64,000 bases of DNA from an uncultured Lachnospiraceae bacterium (GTDB lineage Bacteria > Bacillota > Clostridia > Lachnospirales > Lachnospiraceae), in contig CAMWFQ010000008.1 of the NCBI GenBank assembly GCA_947173495.1, forward strand, positions 1 through 64,000. Direction: 5' to 3'. Both the position numbers and the translations under genes were made by a program. The notes beneath the pieces are model-generated. The model had not been told where the DNA came from. It ran no database searches and saw nothing but the letters and a program-made list of their open reading frames with translations. Positions 21,763 to 28,924 of the stretch are shown one piece after another (positions within the stretch are counted from its first letter, which is position 1; every line of letters begins with the position of its first letter).

Positions 21763-22686
21763 ATGGCTAAAATTAAAGAATATTTATTGGAAGATACGGA
21801 AGCGATCTGCGAGCTGGGCAGAGCAATATCATCTCCCGTCAGGCTGGAGATCCTGAGACTGCTTGTTGAGAGTAATCTGAATATAGGGGAGATTGCAAGG
21901 AAAATGGATCTTCCCCAGTCCAGCACGGCGTTTCATTTAAAGCTCCTTGAAAAGGCGGGGCTGGCACGGATGGAAGAACGTCCGGGAAATCACGGGACCA
22001 TGAAGGTATACAGCCGGAAAACAGATTTTGCCAATATTTGTCTTGTGCCCAGAAATATGGATATTAATGAGATAACAAGGGTCGAAATGCCGGTGGGCGC
22101 ATATGTGGACTGTTCTGTCTGGCCGACCTGTGGACTCTGTGCTCCGGATGGGGTGATCGGGATGGAAGACAAGGAATACAGCTTTTATCTGGGAGAGAGA
22201 AGCCGGGCCGGACTGCTGTGGACTTCCGGAGGTTATGTGAAGTATCGATTCCCGAATTACCTTCCTCCCAATCGATGTCCGGTCAGCTTAAAGCTCAGCA
22301 TGGAGATCTGTTCAGAGGCGCCGGGATATGCGGAAGGATGGAAATCGGATATCACCATGTGGGTAAACGAAAAGGAGTGTGCCATGTGGACAAGCACGGA
22401 TGACTACGGTTCCCGGCGGGGGCGCCTGACTCCTGATTTCTGGGGAACCGGCTCCACCCAGTTCGGGGTTCTGGTGGTCTGGGAAATCAGGGAGGACGGA
22501 AGTTATGTGAATCGTGTGAAGGTGTCGGATATCAATATTCAGGACTTAAAGCTGGAAGAATATCCGTATATTGAAATGATGATTGGAAATAAGGAAGATG
22601 CAAAATATGTGGGAGGATTTAATCTGTTTGGCAAAACCTTCGGGGATTATGAGCAGGATATCCTCCTGGAACTGGAATATCGTTAA
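21763..22686 (+). CDS. ArsR-type winged-helix regulator with large C-terminal domain
   Basis: A 307-residue protein. Residues about 12-85 form an ArsR-type winged helix (ISSPVRLEILRLLVESNLN, IGEIARKMDLPQSSTAFHLK as recognition helix, and a wing near GTMKVYS). The remaining 200 residues are beta-rich with conserved Trp/Gly positions and three cysteines in CSVWPTCGLC; I take this as an effector domain, probably for a sugar, because the gene sits before an ABC sugar importer operon. A palindromic stretch AAATGAT-N5-ATCATTT at 21723-21741 just upstream may be its own operator. The two palindromes around the importer promoter are its likely targets. Confidence 0.8.
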   Translation: MAKIKEYLLEDTEAICELGRAISSPVRLEILRLLVESNLNIGEIARKMDLPQSSTAFHLKLLEKAGLARMEERPGNHGTMKVYSRKTDFANICLVPRNMDINEITRVEMPVGAYVDCSVWPTCGLCAPDGVIGMEDKEYSFYLGERSRAGLLWTSGGYVKYRFPNYLPPNRCPVSLKLSMEICSEAPGYAEGWKSDITMWVNEKECAMWTSTDDYGSRRGRLTPDFWGTGSTQFGVLVVWEIREDGSYVNRVKVSDINIQDLKLEEYPYIEMMIGNKEDAKYVGGFNLFGKTFGDYEQDILLELEYR

Positions 22687-22920: not shown

Positions 22921-22935
22921 AACAATAATATTGTT
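22921..22935. promoter_or_regulatory. Upstream copy of a 15-bp palindromic operator
   Basis: AACAATAATATTGTT, a palindrome apart from its central base, lies 49 bp upstream of the importer -35 box. A one-mismatch copy begins exactly 105 bp downstream. Confidence 0.65.
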
Positions 22936-22984: not shown

Positions 22985-23013
22985 TTGACCAGATATTATT
23001 TTTGCTATATACT
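22985..23013 (+). promoter_or_regulatory. Promoter of the ABC sugar importer operon
   Basis: TTGACC at 22985-22990 and TATACT at 23008-23013 are 17 bp apart. The predicted start of RNA is about 23020, directly before the downstream palindrome. Confidence 0.8.
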
Positions 23014-23025
23014 TTATAAATAAAT

Positions 23026-23040
23026 AACAATAATACTGTT
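23026..23040. promoter_or_regulatory. Downstream copy of the 15-bp palindromic operator
   Basis: AACAATAATACTGTT differs by one base from the upstream copy and covers the start of the transcribed region, a position typical for a repressor site. Confidence 0.65.
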
Positions 23041-23089
23041 ATTATTTTGGAACATAGGAGAATGGCAAAAAGAATCAGGAGGAAAAATC

Positions 23090-24410
23090 ATGAAGAAAAG
23101 AAAATTATATGTTGCAGCAGCTTTGGCAGGTCTGGCGTTAGGATTAGCTGCCTGCGGCAAGACGGCGGATACCCCGAAAACATCAGAAGGAGCCGGGGGG
23201 GGGTAAAAGTGAATCGACTCAGACAGAGACGGCAGTATCTCAGAACGAATCCGGAGAGGTGGTGGAAGTAAATTTCTGGTCGCTGTTTACCGGAGATGAC
23301 GGCGTGACCATGGATGCCATTGTGAAGCAGTTTAATGACGAGCACCCGGATATCAAGGTGACTCATATTGCCATGGAGGCTACATCCGACTTATATGTAA
23401 AGCTCCCTATGGTGGCGGGGGATGACAACCAGGCGCCGGATCTTGCCGTGACACACAATAACTATATTCCTTATCTCGCAGAAAAAGGAGCCATCCAGCC
23501 CATTGACCCTCTGGTGGAGGGATTTGACAATCTCACCAGGGATCACTTCAACAGCGTTGATATGGCGGATTACGATGGGAAGCGCTATGGCGTGATCCTT
23601 GACTTCCCGTCGGCTGTGGTTTACGGCAACAAGGCCCTGATCGAGCAGTATTATCCGGAAATGATAGAAGATTATGTTGTGACCTGGGATGAGATTTATG
23701 AACTGGGCGACCGCCTGGCAGCGGATAATGTGATTGATCAGATCAAGCCTCTGGTGGGAAGCTTTGCAAGAAACGATGTGTTGCAGACCTTTGTGACACA
23801 GGGAGGAACCTATTCGGAAGACGGCAAGACGCTGGCACTTGATAAGGAAATATTAAAGAAAGCACAGGGAGAATGGAAAAATCTGTATGACAAGGGATAC
23901 TTCATGGAGGAGGATTCCGACGCTATGGGCATGTTCGCTATGGGAGAAAGCGTGTTTGTAACGGGCGGAACCTGGAACCTGAATATGGTCAATACCTACG
24001 GACTGGATTATATTATGCTCCCCTGCGTTCAGTATGATACGAATAATGTGATAACCTATGCGGCAGCCCATACCTTTGTAATGCCGCAGAGAAATTATAC
24101 AGATGAGAAAAAACAGGCTGTGGGAGAATTTATCAGCTGGTTTGAAGATCATGCCATGCTGTGGGCGGAGGCTGGTTCCATTGTCGCCTATAAAGAGGTG
24201 GCTGAGAGCGAAGCCTTTGCAAATCTTCCCCAGGCTATGGTGGACAAAGTAGATACCAGACACTGGTGTCCTACCTTCCTGTACAGCAGTGTCTGTGATG
24301 CAACCATAAGCTCTTTTGGGTTCCAGAGCGTGTATGGCCATATGACGCTTGACGAGTATGCGGACGCTGTGATGTCCAAAATTGAAGCAGAGATAGAAGC
24401 CCAGAAATAA
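23090..24410 (+). CDS. ABC sugar importer binding lipoprotein, frameshifted at a nine-G run
   Basis: A solute-binding protein for a CUT1-type sugar importer. The start ATG 23090 (AGGAGGAAAAATC upstream) gives a signal peptide with lipobox GLAACG. At 23195-23203 nine consecutive G put the frame onto TAA. With eight G the frame would continue through GKSESTQTETAV into EVNFWSLFTGDDG and a normal binding-protein domain (GDDNQAPDLAVTHNNYIPYL, YPEMIEDYVVTWDEIYELGD as recognisable parts) to 24410, giving about 439 residues. The downstream part alone is open from GTG 23259 but would lack export. The operon continues with two permeases. No ATPase gene is nearby, as is common when a shared MsmK-type ATPase serves several importers. 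Confidence 0.85.
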
Positions 24411-24459
24411 GGGCTTCTTATCAGACATCAGTTTGGACATAGGGAAGGAGGATAAGACA

Positions 24460-25392
24460 GTGCAGGAGATGAAAAAGAAAAATCGAAAAAGAATGCGGCA
24501 CTGGTATGTTCCATTTTTGTTTTTGCTGCCGCATCTCATAGTGTTTGTCTGTTTCAATCTGTTTCCGTCTCTGGCAGGCATCTATGCCGCTTTTACAAAA
24601 TGGGATCTGGGAAAGGCTCCTCAATGGATAGGGCTTGAGAACTTAAAAACAATTTTTACTGATCAGAGTTCTCTGTTTTACTGGGAACTCAGGTGGGGAC
24701 TGCGGAATACCTGTCTGTTTGTACTGATCGCAGTTCCGTTTCGAATTATTGTGCCTTTGCTTCTGGCAGCGGCTTTAAACAGCAAATGTCCGGGTTATAA
24801 GCTTTATCAGACGATTTTTTATCTGCCTGCACTGTTGTCCTTGTCCGTTGTTATGGGAGCATGGAATTACATGTTTAACACCAATTATGGGATTATCAAT
24901 AATTTCCTGGGACTCGGAAATCTTTCCTGGACAAAGACGGTTCCCCTGAACTGGGCGGCAATCATCATTATAACGGTCTGGTGGGGAACAGGAAGCAATA
25001 TGGTGATCTATCAGGCTGCTCTGGCCGGAATACCTGCGGACATACTGGAGGCTTCCAGGGTGGACGGCGCGAATTGTGTACAGAGATTTTTCCGAATTGT
25101 TCTTCCGGCTATGAAATACCCGATTTCCTATACGCTTGCCATGAGCATGATTGCGGAGTTTAATGTATGGGGACAGCCGGGGATGTTTAATAAAGGCGGT
25201 CCTGTAGTGGAAATTGTCAATGGATTTGCACGTAACTCCAATATGATGCTGATGCAGTATATCAGAGATGCAGGATTCCAGGGAGCGTACGGCTCTAACC
25301 CGGGGATAGCGTCCGCAATGGCATTGATTCTGGGATGTATCATGGTAGTGGTGTCCCTGATTCAGGTACATCTGATGCAGAAGAACAGCTAG
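24460..25392 (+). CDS. ABC sugar importer permease, MalF type
   Basis: A protein of about 310 residues with six predicted membrane segments. The first is VPFLFLLPHLIVFVCF, and the ATPase-contact loop is EASRVDGANCVQRFFRIVLP, matching the EAA motif of importer permeases. The chosen start is GTG 24460, eight bases after GGAGG; an ATG at 24469 is too far from it. It lies 49 bp after the binding-protein gene and 12 bp before the second permease start. It should form the translocation pore with that protein. Confidence 0.92.
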   Translation: MQEMKKKNRKRMRHWYVPFLFLLPHLIVFVCFNLFPSLAGIYAAFTKWDLGKAPQWIGLENLKTIFTDQSSLFYWELRWGLRNTCLFVLIAVPFRIIVPLLLAAALNSKCPGYKLYQTIFYLPALLSLSVVMGAWNYMFNTNYGIINNFLGLGNLSWTKTVPLNWAAIIIITVWWGTGSNMVIYQAALAGIPADILEASRVDGANCVQRFFRIVLPAMKYPISYTLAMSMIAEFNVWGQPGMFNKGGPVVEIVNGFARNSNMMLMQYIRDAGFQGAYGSNPGIASAMALILGCIMVVVSLIQVHLMQKNS

Positions 25393-25404
25393 GGGGTGGT
25401 TAAG

Positions 25405-26268
25405 ATGGAAAAACGAAGAACAAAGATGTTACAGAAAAGAAATCTGTCCGCCTGGCTGTTGAGCATGGTTCTGGCTGTGATTGCCGTATGCTGGATCATG
25501 CCTGTAGTGGCAGGAGCGTTTACCAGCTTTAAATCGAATCTTGAGGTAAAGATGTTTGCAAGGGATCTGAATCTGATTCCGCATAACTGGACGCTGGAAA
25601 ACTATGAATATGTGGTAAATTATCCGACTCTTTCGATTTACAAAGCAATGGGAAACACGGTTATTGTCTGTATCGTAAGTATTGTTTTGACATTGCTTTT
25701 GTGTACCATGTCGGCTTATGGATTTGAGCGGTTTGAATTTAAGGGGAAGGAGACCCTGTTCTGGACCCTGTTTACCCTGAGCAGTATTCCCAATGTGGTA
25801 GCCCTTGTTCCCCAGTATACGTTTTATACCTGGCTGGGATGGATCGACCGGCTTCCCTCCATCATTGCACCTACTGTTGCGGATGTGTTTTATATTTTCC
25901 TGATCCGTAATTTCATGAAGGGAATTCCGAAGGAGCTGGAGGAAGCGGCCAGAATCGATGGGGCCGGCGAACTGAAGATATTAGCGCTGGTGGAGGCGCC
26001 GCTGCTGAAACCGGTGCTGACGATTGTGGGAATTTTCAAATTCAGCGGTGCCTGGAATGACTTCCTCTGGCCTTCTATTGCCATCACCACACCGACCCAT
26101 TCCACCATCACACCGGCGATCAGACTGCTGAATGATTCTTATGGAGGAATGCCGGAGAGGCTTTTGGCGGGATGTATGCTGGCCATGCTCCCCACGCTGG
26201 TCGTCTATCTTGTTTTCAGAAAGCAGTTTTTGAAGGGTCTTGATGTGGGCTCGGGAGTGAAAGGATAA
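25405..26268 (+). CDS. ABC sugar importer permease, MalG type
   Basis: A 287-residue inner-membrane protein with six segments (first near SAWLLSMVLAVIAVCWIMPV). The EAA loop ELEEAARIDGAGELKILALV contacts the ATPase. The start ATG 25405 follows AGGGGGTGG; the GTG at 25396 lies within that site. It pairs with the MalF-type permease just upstream. The substrate is probably an oligosaccharide handled by the esterase and GH2 enzyme encoded next. Confidence 0.92.
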   Translation: MEKRRTKMLQKRNLSAWLLSMVLAVIAVCWIMPVVAGAFTSFKSNLEVKMFARDLNLIPHNWTLENYEYVVNYPTLSIYKAMGNTVIVCIVSIVLTLLLCTMSAYGFERFEFKGKETLFWTLFTLSSIPNVVALVPQYTFYTWLGWIDRLPSIIAPTVADVFYIFLIRNFMKGIPKELEEAARIDGAGELKILALVEAPLLKPVLTIVGIFKFSGAWNDFLWPSIAITTPTHSTITPAIRLLNDSYGGMPERLLAGCMLAMLPTLVVYLVFRKQFLKGLDVGSGVKG

Positions 26269-26289: not shown

Positions 26290-27138
26290 ATGAGTCTGGT
26301 AAGAATGAATTTTTTTGCAAAATCACTGAATATGCGCACAGATGTCACAGCAGTTTTACCGGAGTATCCTCTCCAGAGAGCGTGCGGGGAAGACTATAAG
26401 GCAAAATTCCCGGCAGAGAGTAAATTTCCGGTACTTTATTTTCTGAACGGTTTTACAGGCGATTATACGGATGGACTTACCATGATGCCTGTCGAGCGGT
26501 TTGTCCAGGAAACGGGGATCGCCGTAGTGATGCCTTCCGGGCTGAATTCCTGGTATGAGGATATTCCGGGCGGTGTTCACATGAAAACATTTATAGCCAG
26601 GGAGCTTCCGGCGGCTATGGAGGCTTTGCTGCCGGTGTCAGACAGGGCGGACCGGCGTTTCCTGGGAGGAATTTCCATGGGGGCAAGGGGAGCGGCTCTG
26701 ATCAGCGCCTGCTATTCTGATTATTACAGAGCAACAGTATGCCTTTCAGCTCCGCTAAATTTGCCGGGACTCTTGATGGATCCTGCGGAGCATGATAAAA
26801 AAATGATAGAACAGAGTCTTCAGCTCGCTTTCGGCGGGCTGGAGAATATTGAAACAGAAGCGGGTGATTATTATGCGCTCACAGAAAAACTTGTAAAAGA
26901 AGGGAGGAAAATTCCAGAGATATTATTTCTGTTTGGAAAGGACGATCCGCTGTATCCTTATCAGTATAACAGATTTGTGCGCTTTGCTGAAAGGCATGAA
27001 TTACCTGCAGTCTGTGAAGCATGGGAAAAGGGCAGGCATGATTTTGATTTCTGGGAACCTGCCATGAAAAAGGCCATGACATGGCTTAACTCAAAAATAA
27101 AGATTGAGGAAAGGACAGAATATGAACACATACAGTAA
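26290..27138 (+). CDS. Esterase of the esterase D / feruloyl-esterase-like family
   Basis: A 282-residue alpha/beta hydrolase without signal peptide. The nucleophile elbow is GGISMGARGA (Ser129), the acid is probably in LFGKDDPLY, and the His in KGRHDFDFW. Family members remove acetyl or feruloyl groups from carbohydrate or act on small esters. Being between the importer and a GH2 glycosidase, it may deacylate imported oligosaccharides. Its end overlaps the GH2 gene start by 17 bp, so the two are translated together. Confidence 0.85.
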   Translation: MSLVRMNFFAKSLNMRTDVTAVLPEYPLQRACGEDYKAKFPAESKFPVLYFLNGFTGDYTDGLTMMPVERFVQETGIAVVMPSGLNSWYEDIPGGVHMKTFIARELPAAMEALLPVSDRADRRFLGGISMGARGAALISACYSDYYRATVCLSAPLNLPGLLMDPAEHDKKMIEQSLQLAFGGLENIETEAGDYYALTEKLVKEGRKIPEILFLFGKDDPLYPYQYNRFVRFAERHELPAVCEAWEKGRHDFDFWEPAMKKAMTWLNSKIKIEERTEYEHIQ

Positions 27139-28924
27139 GGACTATCCGCGCCCTCAGTTCATCCGGAAGGAATGGACGAACCTGAACGGGGAATGGGAAT
27201 TCAGAATGGATGATGAGAACAGGGGAGAACAGGAGGGGTGGTTTAACGGATTTGATCAGTGCCGCAGGATTCGTGTTCCCTTTACTTATGAGACTGAGAT
27301 GAGCGGAATCGGAGAGGAGGAAATTCATCCCTGTATCTGGTATCAGAGAGAGATTACCATTGAAGGAGCAAAAAAGACAGACCATAAGGTAATTCTTCAC
27401 TTTGAGGGCAGTGATTTTCTGACAAAGGTGTGGGTGAACGGGCAGCTGGTCGGTTCTCACAAGGGGGGATACAGTCGTTTCTCTTTTGATATTACAGATC
27501 TGTCCACAGAGGGGGCAAATCGGATCTGCGTGAAGGCAGAAGATTTTCCTGAGGCGGAACAGCCCCGGGGCAAGCAGCGATGGGTGAAAAACAGCTTCGG
27601 CTGCTGGTATGTTCAGACCACCGGGATATGGAAAACCGTGTGGATGGAGTATGTGCCGGCGATAAGCCTTGCCGCTGTGAAGATGACGCCTGATCTGCCG
27701 AATAAGTGTCTGCGGGTGGAATATCAGGTGGATGCTCCCGACGGTCCGTTATTCTCCGGAGCGGGTGGATGCAATCTGGGAGCGGAAATATCCTTTGAGG
27801 GACGGCTGATTGCAAGGACAATAACCGCAGTGACAAAGAAGTCCATTACTGTGGAAATCGACCTTGACAGGTCCGAGGAGGATGAACCCTGGGGAATCTA
27901 TACATGGAGCCCGGAAAGACCGCAGCTTTACGATATTTGTTTTCTCCTGTTCAGGGGAGATGAGCTGCTGGATGAGGTGCGGTCCTACTTTGGCATGAGG
28001 GAGATCAGAATCGAAGGAGATCATATTCTGCTGAACGGAGAGCCTCTTTATCAACGACTGATTCTGGATCAGGGGTACTGGGAAAAATCTCACCTCACAC
28101 CTCCGGATGAGCAGGCGCTGATCGAAGACATTGATAAAATTCACGCCCTGGGTTATAACGGTGTGAGAAAGCATCAGAAAACAGAGGATGAAAGATTCCT
28201 TTACTGGTGTGATGTGAAGGGAATGCTGGTATGGGGCGAGGCGCCTGCCACCTACCGTTTTTCAGATGAGGCAGTCTCCCATTTTACGGGAGAATGGATG
28301 GACATAGTCCGACAGAATTATAACCATCCCTGTATCATTACCTGGGTTCCCTTTAATGAATCCTGGGGAATTCCGCAGATAAAGACAAACAGGCAGCAAC
28401 AGCATTTTACGGAAGGCGTCTATCATCTGACGAAAAGTATAGACAGATACCGGCCGGTAATCGTCAATGATGGGTGGGAGCATACCATTTCGGATATTAT
28501 TACTCTGCATGATTATGAAGAGTGCGGAGAGGTGTTTAAAAGCCGTTATATTCAATACGCAGACGGAATCATGGCAGGGGAGGTGTATCATTCCCGCTAC
28601 AGGTCTGCCTTCGCCAACGGATATTCCTACCGCGGTCAGCCGGTCATCATCAGTGAATTTGGCGGGATCGCATTTGACGGACAACCCGAAGGCTGGGGAT
28701 ATGGAAATACAGTGGCCGGCGAGGAAGAGTTTTTGAAACGGTTTGACAGCATTACAACGGCGATTAAGGAGATCCCTTATGTGTGCGGCTATTGCTATAC
28801 CCAGGTTACCGACGTTCAGCAGGAGATCAACGGTCTTATGGATATCAGGCGGGAATTTAAGGTAGATCCCGATAAAATCAAAGAGATCAATGAGCGTCAG
28901 GTGGGATTTTTGAGAAAAATGTAA
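27122..28924 (+). CDS. GH2 family glycoside hydrolase (beta-galactosidase/glucuronidase-like)
   Basis: A 600-residue cytoplasmic exo-glycosidase of family GH2. The N-terminal sugar-binding domain shows VILHFEGSDFLTKVWVNGQL, followed by an immunoglobulin-like domain and a TIM barrel. The acid/base Glu413 lies in VPFNESWG and the nucleophile Glu512 in IISEFGG. The start ATG 27122 follows GAGGAAAGG. Length near 600 fits short GH2 members such as beta-glucuronidase or beta-galactosidase types; the specific sugar cannot be decided. It is the last gene of the importer operon. Confidence 0.9.
   Translation: MNTYSKDYPRPQFIRKEWTNLNGEWEFRMDDENRGEQEGWFNGFDQCRRIRVPFTYETEMSGIGEEEIHPCIWYQREITIEGAKKTDHKVILHFEGSDFLTKVWVNGQLVGSHKGGYSRFSFDITDLSTEGANRICVKAEDFPEAEQPRGKQRWVKNSFGCWYVQTTGIWKTVWMEYVPAISLAAVKMTPDLPNKCLRVEYQVDAPDGPLFSGAGGCNLGAEISFEGRLIARTITAVTKKSITVEIDLDRSEEDEPWGIYTWSPERPQLYDICFLLFRGDELLDEVRSYFGMREIRIEGDHILLNGEPLYQRLILDQGYWEKSHLTPPDEQALIEDIDKIHALGYNGVRKHQKTEDERFLYWCDVKGMLVWGEAPATYRFSDEAVSHFTGEWMDIVRQNYNHPCIITWVPFNESWGIPQIKTNRQQQHFTEGVYHLTKSIDRYRPVIVNDGWEHTISDIITLHDYEECGEVFKSRYIQYADGIMAGEVYHSRYRSAFANGYSYRGQPVIISEFGGIAFDGQPEGWGYGNTVAGEEEFLKRFDSITTAIKEIPYVCGYCYTQVTDVQQEINGLMDIRREFKVDPDKIKEINERQVGFLRKM

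Follow-up and report, generated by a model that had tools for sequence, protein, structure and literature searches.

A binding-lipoprotein gene that opens a putative sugar-uptake operon in an uncultured Lachnospiraceae bacterium is divided into two reading frames by a run of nine guanines (G9). The run lies early in the gene, at 23195-23203 on the + strand of the 64,000-nucleotide stretch of DNA analysed here (the window). We think it rather probable that this G9 is a real, slippage-prone contingency tract that gives phase variation by slipped-strand mispairing, and that it is one of a set of G tracts found across the genus. Related species carry comparable G runs in genes for the surface coat and for uptake, a pattern that suggests random on/off switching more than a sequencing mistake.

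The initial annotation held that the signal peptide and the mature domain are in different frames joined at the G9, and a position-by-position reading of the sequence bears this out: a frame of 38 codons is followed by 401 codons at a one-base offset. The 5' frame begins with the ATG at 23090, its product starts MKKRKLYVAAALAGLALGLAACGKTADTPKTSEGAGGG, and the TAA immediately 3' of the run closes it in the linker. The downstream frame stays open until the stop at 24408-24410, free of any second lesion, and the part from 23259 matches the Pfam families SBP_bac_8 (E 1e-24) and SBP_bac_1 (E 6.5e-14). The features of the locus are as follows.

21763..22686, + strand: ArsR-type winged-helix regulator (Pfam HTH_5, E 6.7e-11)
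22921..22935, no strand assigned: perfect palindrome AACAATAATATTGTT, possible operator by putative function (script scan)
22985..23013, + strand: sigma-70-like promoter, TTGACC-17-TATACT (consensus scan, 10/12 matches)
23077..23082, + strand: Shine-Dalgarno sequence AGGAGG (seen in the sequence)
23090..23206, + strand: 5' fragment with lipoprotein signal peptide, lipobox LAAC, and start of the linker (sequence and lipobox screen)
23205..24410, + strand: remainder of the linker and mature solute-binding domain, 401 open codons (SBP_bac_8, SBP_bac_1; open frame)
24433..25392, + strand: ABC transporter permease (BPD_transp_1, E 4.3e-12)
25396..26268, + strand: ABC transporter permease (BPD_transp_1, E 1.8e-13)
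26290..27138, + strand: putative esterase (PF00756, E 1.4e-10)
27104..28924, + strand: glycoside hydrolase family 2 (PF02837, E 3.4e-21; PF02836, E 6.1e-11)

The lipobox signal peptide, the solute-binding domain, and the adjoining BPD_transp_1 permeases are those of a carbohydrate ABC transporter binding lipoprotein, and the GH2 neighbor and the protein family point to a sugar as the substrate. The gene is otherwise intact and predicted to be expressible, given its Shine-Dalgarno sequence, a promoter-like site, and the 401 open codons. A gap of 76 bases separates the promoter-like site from the start codon; the site is weak evidence for a promoter because six such sites were found in the region versus 3.3 expected. 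From its position, the ArsR-type regulator possibly controls the operon. A second, AT-rich inverted repeat (AATAACA-7-TGTTATT, 23023-23043) was noted by eye. This repeat and the palindrome, which is AT-rich as well, lie around the promoter-like site, and they may be operators of the regulator.

Two other ways of supplying the function were considered and rejected. Internal restart at the GTG codons at 23259 or 23262 is implausible because these overlap GGAGAGG (23253-23259) or lie only 2 bases behind it, a spacing shorter than that of a usual site; a protein started there would also be without a lipid anchor. No second copy of the gene was found in the 4.58 Mb, 52-contig genome, which rules out a duplicate; unrelated to copy number, other binding proteins might handle this substrate too.

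As in contingency loci generally, this is an in-gene repeat tract whose length decides the reading frame. Slipped-strand mispairing at replication would alter the length of the run by one base, and cells would alternate between an on state, with the full lipid-anchored sugar-binding protein, and an off state, with a 38-residue fragment. The assembled G9 sequence would represent the off state, in which the permeases, with start sites of their own, may still be produced and uptake of the substrate would presumably fail or weaken. Slippage would thus switch at random the first gene of an operon for uptake and hydrolysis, and the promoter and regulator would add ordinary control on top. Changes in linker length are plausibly harmless. 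We infer that cells of the strain differ in the length of this tract, that switching goes both ways, and that the tract is there through selection rather than incidentally.

The run is the sole G or C run of at least 8 on either strand of the window, where overlapping G8 matches number two versus a mean of 3.16 in shuffles. Genome-wide, seven G runs of at least 9 were seen versus a few expected by rough extrapolation from the fall-off in run length. Composition thus predicts about as many G runs as are seen, and this run is not beyond chance by count. What is odd is the location of the G runs and their breaking of frames, not their number. A survey of the 30 best-scoring of 71 PF01547 matches in the same genome found a lipobox in 28, and in none of these 28 is there a G run longer than 7 in the 40 codons that start at the cysteine.

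Near-chance counts favor the view that the run is incidental: born of base composition in the glycine stretch of the linker, it would have slipped once and left the gene off in this lineage, unselected. The growth of G runs before T by T to G change, as described in a published report (PMC12344412), fits such births. Against this, a downstream frame of 401 codons persists without a second lesion. On this and the comparative evidence given below, we judge the incidental origin unlikely.

Within the genome, all four coding G runs of at least 9 are out of frame, and all in the same direction (the frame of the fourth, at C17:13906, was judged by eye); the remaining three of the seven fall outside callable genes. 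The four broken genes encode the window's lipoprotein, a GH3 glycosidase, a probable methyltransferase (26.6 bits, slightly below the Pfam cut-off of 27), and a signal-peptide protein with no Pfam match. The run in the GH3 gene (C3:66118, at about 9919 of locus L077) lies inside the N-terminal domain. There it looks less like a tuned switch, a point in favor of incidental runs. On the strand of this gene, a binding-protein match lies some 1.2 kb away.

Four of four coding runs broken in one direction is also the pattern expected if long G runs were systematically miscounted, and Illumina sequencing is troubled by G tracts (PMC9187656). If the assembly is in error, the true length is in frame and the protein is always made. 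Homopolymers of the other type argue otherwise. In a 368 kb sample, coding A/T runs of at least 8 were in frame in 26 cases and out of frame in one, with six not callable and one at an edge; by eye, the sole exception is the junction of two epimerase-like genes. The frame states of G runs of at least 9 and A/T runs of at least 8 differ (Fisher p 3.6e-5, or 1.6e-4 with the gene-boundary case kept). Most coding G8 runs of the sample keep the frame as well: eight do, three do not, and two are not callable (a shorter-window pass gave 9 in and 4 out). An earlier shorter-window pass called 16/129 coding A/T 7-runs and 4/24 longer ones shifted. Nine of the shifted A/T calls were rechecked: three proved to be in frame or not two-sided, and six resemble gene ends or starts by eye.

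Because the callable A/T runs of at least 8 are nearly all in frame, the assembly appears to be without general homopolymer frame breakage; other homopolymers do not also break frames, as they would if homopolymer errors were widespread. The sequencing error raised by the initial annotation is thus unlikely in its general form, and a fault confined to long G runs of this single assembly is made less likely by the G9 runs of other species, which are in frame about as often as out (34 versus 36 of 98). Overall, we regard an error as quite improbable. A mutator strain is likewise unsupported: mutS and mutL, the two repair genes examined, are both open, each with one match above the curated cut-off and no internal stop.

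Among 15 scanned pieces of this genome with runs of at least 8, the window gene aside, three match methyltransferases and three match acyltransferase-3, one match of each kind being only below the curated cut-off. The 5.4 kb contig C49 (locus L091) carries a G13 run outside callable genes; it also has an acyltransferase-3 gene with a G8 run, scored as out of frame by the script.

G9 runs are widespread in the genus. They occur in 28 of 37 genomes, with 0-14 per genome and 104 in total, 99 of them outside this genome. Frames were called heuristically, with hexamer scores from this genome and the upstream frame chosen by coding score, and the counts quoted are uncorrected script output. By these calls, 98 of the 99 G9 runs of other species were read, of which 34 are in frame, 36 out, and 28 not callable. 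For the genus and this genome together, runs of at least 9 coding on the G strand are in frame in 31 cases, out in 41, and not callable in 29, after exclusion of seven runs assigned to the C strand. The 41 include gene boundaries; 22 of them remain under a stricter criterion, which asks for at least 40 open codons and for the absence of Met from the 20 codons that follow. Of seven tracts checked by eye, the calls were wrong in two, in opposite directions, with short signal peptides misjudged. The corrections by eye move L096 from in to out of frame, L050 (one of the 22) from out to in, and L067 from not callable to in.

Control loci were taken one per genome from 30 of the 37 genomes, and their windows are slightly unlike those of the G9 set. 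At 30 loci with an interrupted run (G4HG4), 26 were in frame, two out, and two not callable, so that runs of at least 9 show an excess of broken frames (p 3.2e-6). At 30 A9 loci, 10 were in frame, four out, and 16 not callable, and the excess over these was not significant (p 0.08).

We obtained 83 tract pieces of other species from 101 runs of at least 9 that were read, the others being too short or not coding by score. Among the matches listed (the best 25 of 80 families, with overlapping members), the commonest Pfam families are hexapeptide transferase and Methyltransf_23, with four each. DUF2142, GT2, acyltransferase-3, and radical SAM follow with three each, and Caps_synth, sugar-binding GT, epimerase, SBP_bac_5, short-chain dehydrogenase, and AraC, among others, with two each. 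Surface-glycan-type transferases make up the commonest tract families. Across 49 control pieces, the domains seen twice or more among the best 25 of 97 families are GGDEF, MatE, cache, and sigma-70, and no glycan-type family reached two hits among the matches listed. One locus of another genome (L054, G009:C54) holds three G9 runs inside 1.2 kb, in a region that by eye resembles a DNA cytosine methyltransferase.

Some tracts have been kept in place. In five families the run occupies the homologous site in two or three species, with identities of 37-77%.

The C17:13906 protein of this genome, L110, and L130: 37%
L062 and L123: 77%
L072 and L108: 53%
L050 and L067: 58%
L046 and L138: 37%

Altogether 17 downstream pairs were matched; seven of these, from the five families, have the run in the same place, and 10 have it elsewhere or fall within one locus. 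The tracts of conserved place are pure G9 flanked by diverged DNA. Because glycine codons are free to vary at the third base, yet the G9 stays pure, selection for the run is suggested, in opposition to an incidental origin. In one family (C17:13906, at about 9907 of locus L087, with L110 and L130), the G9 sits at the end of the signal peptide and is out of frame in all three species. By eye the three frame breaks share a direction, and none of the three pieces matched Pfam when scanned.

Two further binding lipoproteins share the layout of the window's gene, also against an incidental run. In another species, L096 encodes an SBP_bac_5 lipoprotein whose linker carries an out-of-frame G9 placed 24 residues after the lipid cysteine; by eye, the signal frame closes just past the run and the domain resumes in another frame. 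In a third species, the SBP_bac_5 lipoprotein of L109 has a G9 directly after the cysteine, and its frame is intact. The window's case is therefore not alone among uptake lipoproteins. Taken together, the tracts in surface and uptake genes across the genus, their split frame states, and their kept places lend indirect support to the contingency reading offered in the initial annotation.

Close relatives of the window's lipoprotein are scarce. A search of the 36 other genus genomes (E 1e-40) returned one relative at 31% identity, and an order-level sample of 392 genomes, this one included (E 1e-60), returned one besides the gene itself, at 32%; named genomes gave relatives at 28% and 24%. No close ortholog was found in either the genus or the order set. 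None of the four homologs examined (24-32% identity) has a G run longer than 6 in its 5' region. Their lack of a tract would favor an incidental run, and the initial annotation had taken relatives with no G run there as grounds to abandon the switch; at such identities these homologs are too distant to decide. A search of viral contigs with the flanking pattern and a free gap gave no match, as expected for a chromosomal gene.

The stop codon directly behind the run recalls shifty stops, of which prfB is an example. Accordingly, RNA polymerase slippage, or a ribosomal shift at GGG-UAA, could allow the G9 gene to yield some full-length product. In the other tract genes inspected in full, the run is not followed at once by a stop, so recoding would not explain the set. 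Moreover, predicted folding of the RNA surrounding the run is no stronger than that of shuffled sequences (z -0.84). We consider rescue by recoding very improbable.

Random switching in gut clostridia is known mainly via DNA inversion, as in C. difficile. In Campylobacter, tract genes are concentrated in surface-glycan genes. The original paper on p78 of Mycoplasma fermentans is reportedly that of Theiss and Wise in 1997. As described in PMC2831843, p78 is a lipoprotein of an ABC transporter operon that switches via a 5' poly-A tract; the same paper notes that poly-A and poly-T runs are over-represented in many prokaryotes and lie near the 5' ends of genes. Like the window's gene, p78 has a homopolymer at the 5' end of an ABC-operon lipoprotein gene, where a one-base change inactivates it; unlike it, p78 has a poly-A of 7, belongs to a mycoplasma, and had its switching reported from experiment, whereas the window's gene is known from sequence alone (PMC2831843). 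G tracts in the sortase-dependent pilus genes of Bifidobacterium breve shift in length in the mouse gut, as stated in PMC9187656. There, too, coding runs (G10 and G11) split a gene into two frames and slippage sets the on/off state in a gut commensal, whereas those tracts are in actinobacterial pilus genes and their lengths were measured by deep sequencing (PMC9187656). The genus also resembles Campylobacter, with its poly-G phasome, (PMC6321876), in having many repeat-tract genes in one genus, here as putative switches, and differs in that its G9 runs are few, at 0-14 per genome, and known from assemblies.

Among the matches listed from open-licence papers, by title and start of abstract, there was no report of slippage tracts in Lachnospiraceae, Clostridia, Clostridium, or Blautia, nor was there one in a wider search of this literature on such tracts. 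The mode of switching is already known, and the possible genus-wide set merits its own study. Tentatively, the genus may possess a G-tract phasome: one and the same slippage process would switch enzymes for coat glycans as well as lipoproteins that bind nutrients, leaving one clone mixed in both surface sugar and nutrient uptake. If so, slippage tracts in surface-glycan and uptake genes would add a source of cell-to-cell difference across the genus. Assemblies would record such switched genes as broken, and annotation would discard them. It would also become testable whether random switching of nutrient-binding lipoproteins is selected.
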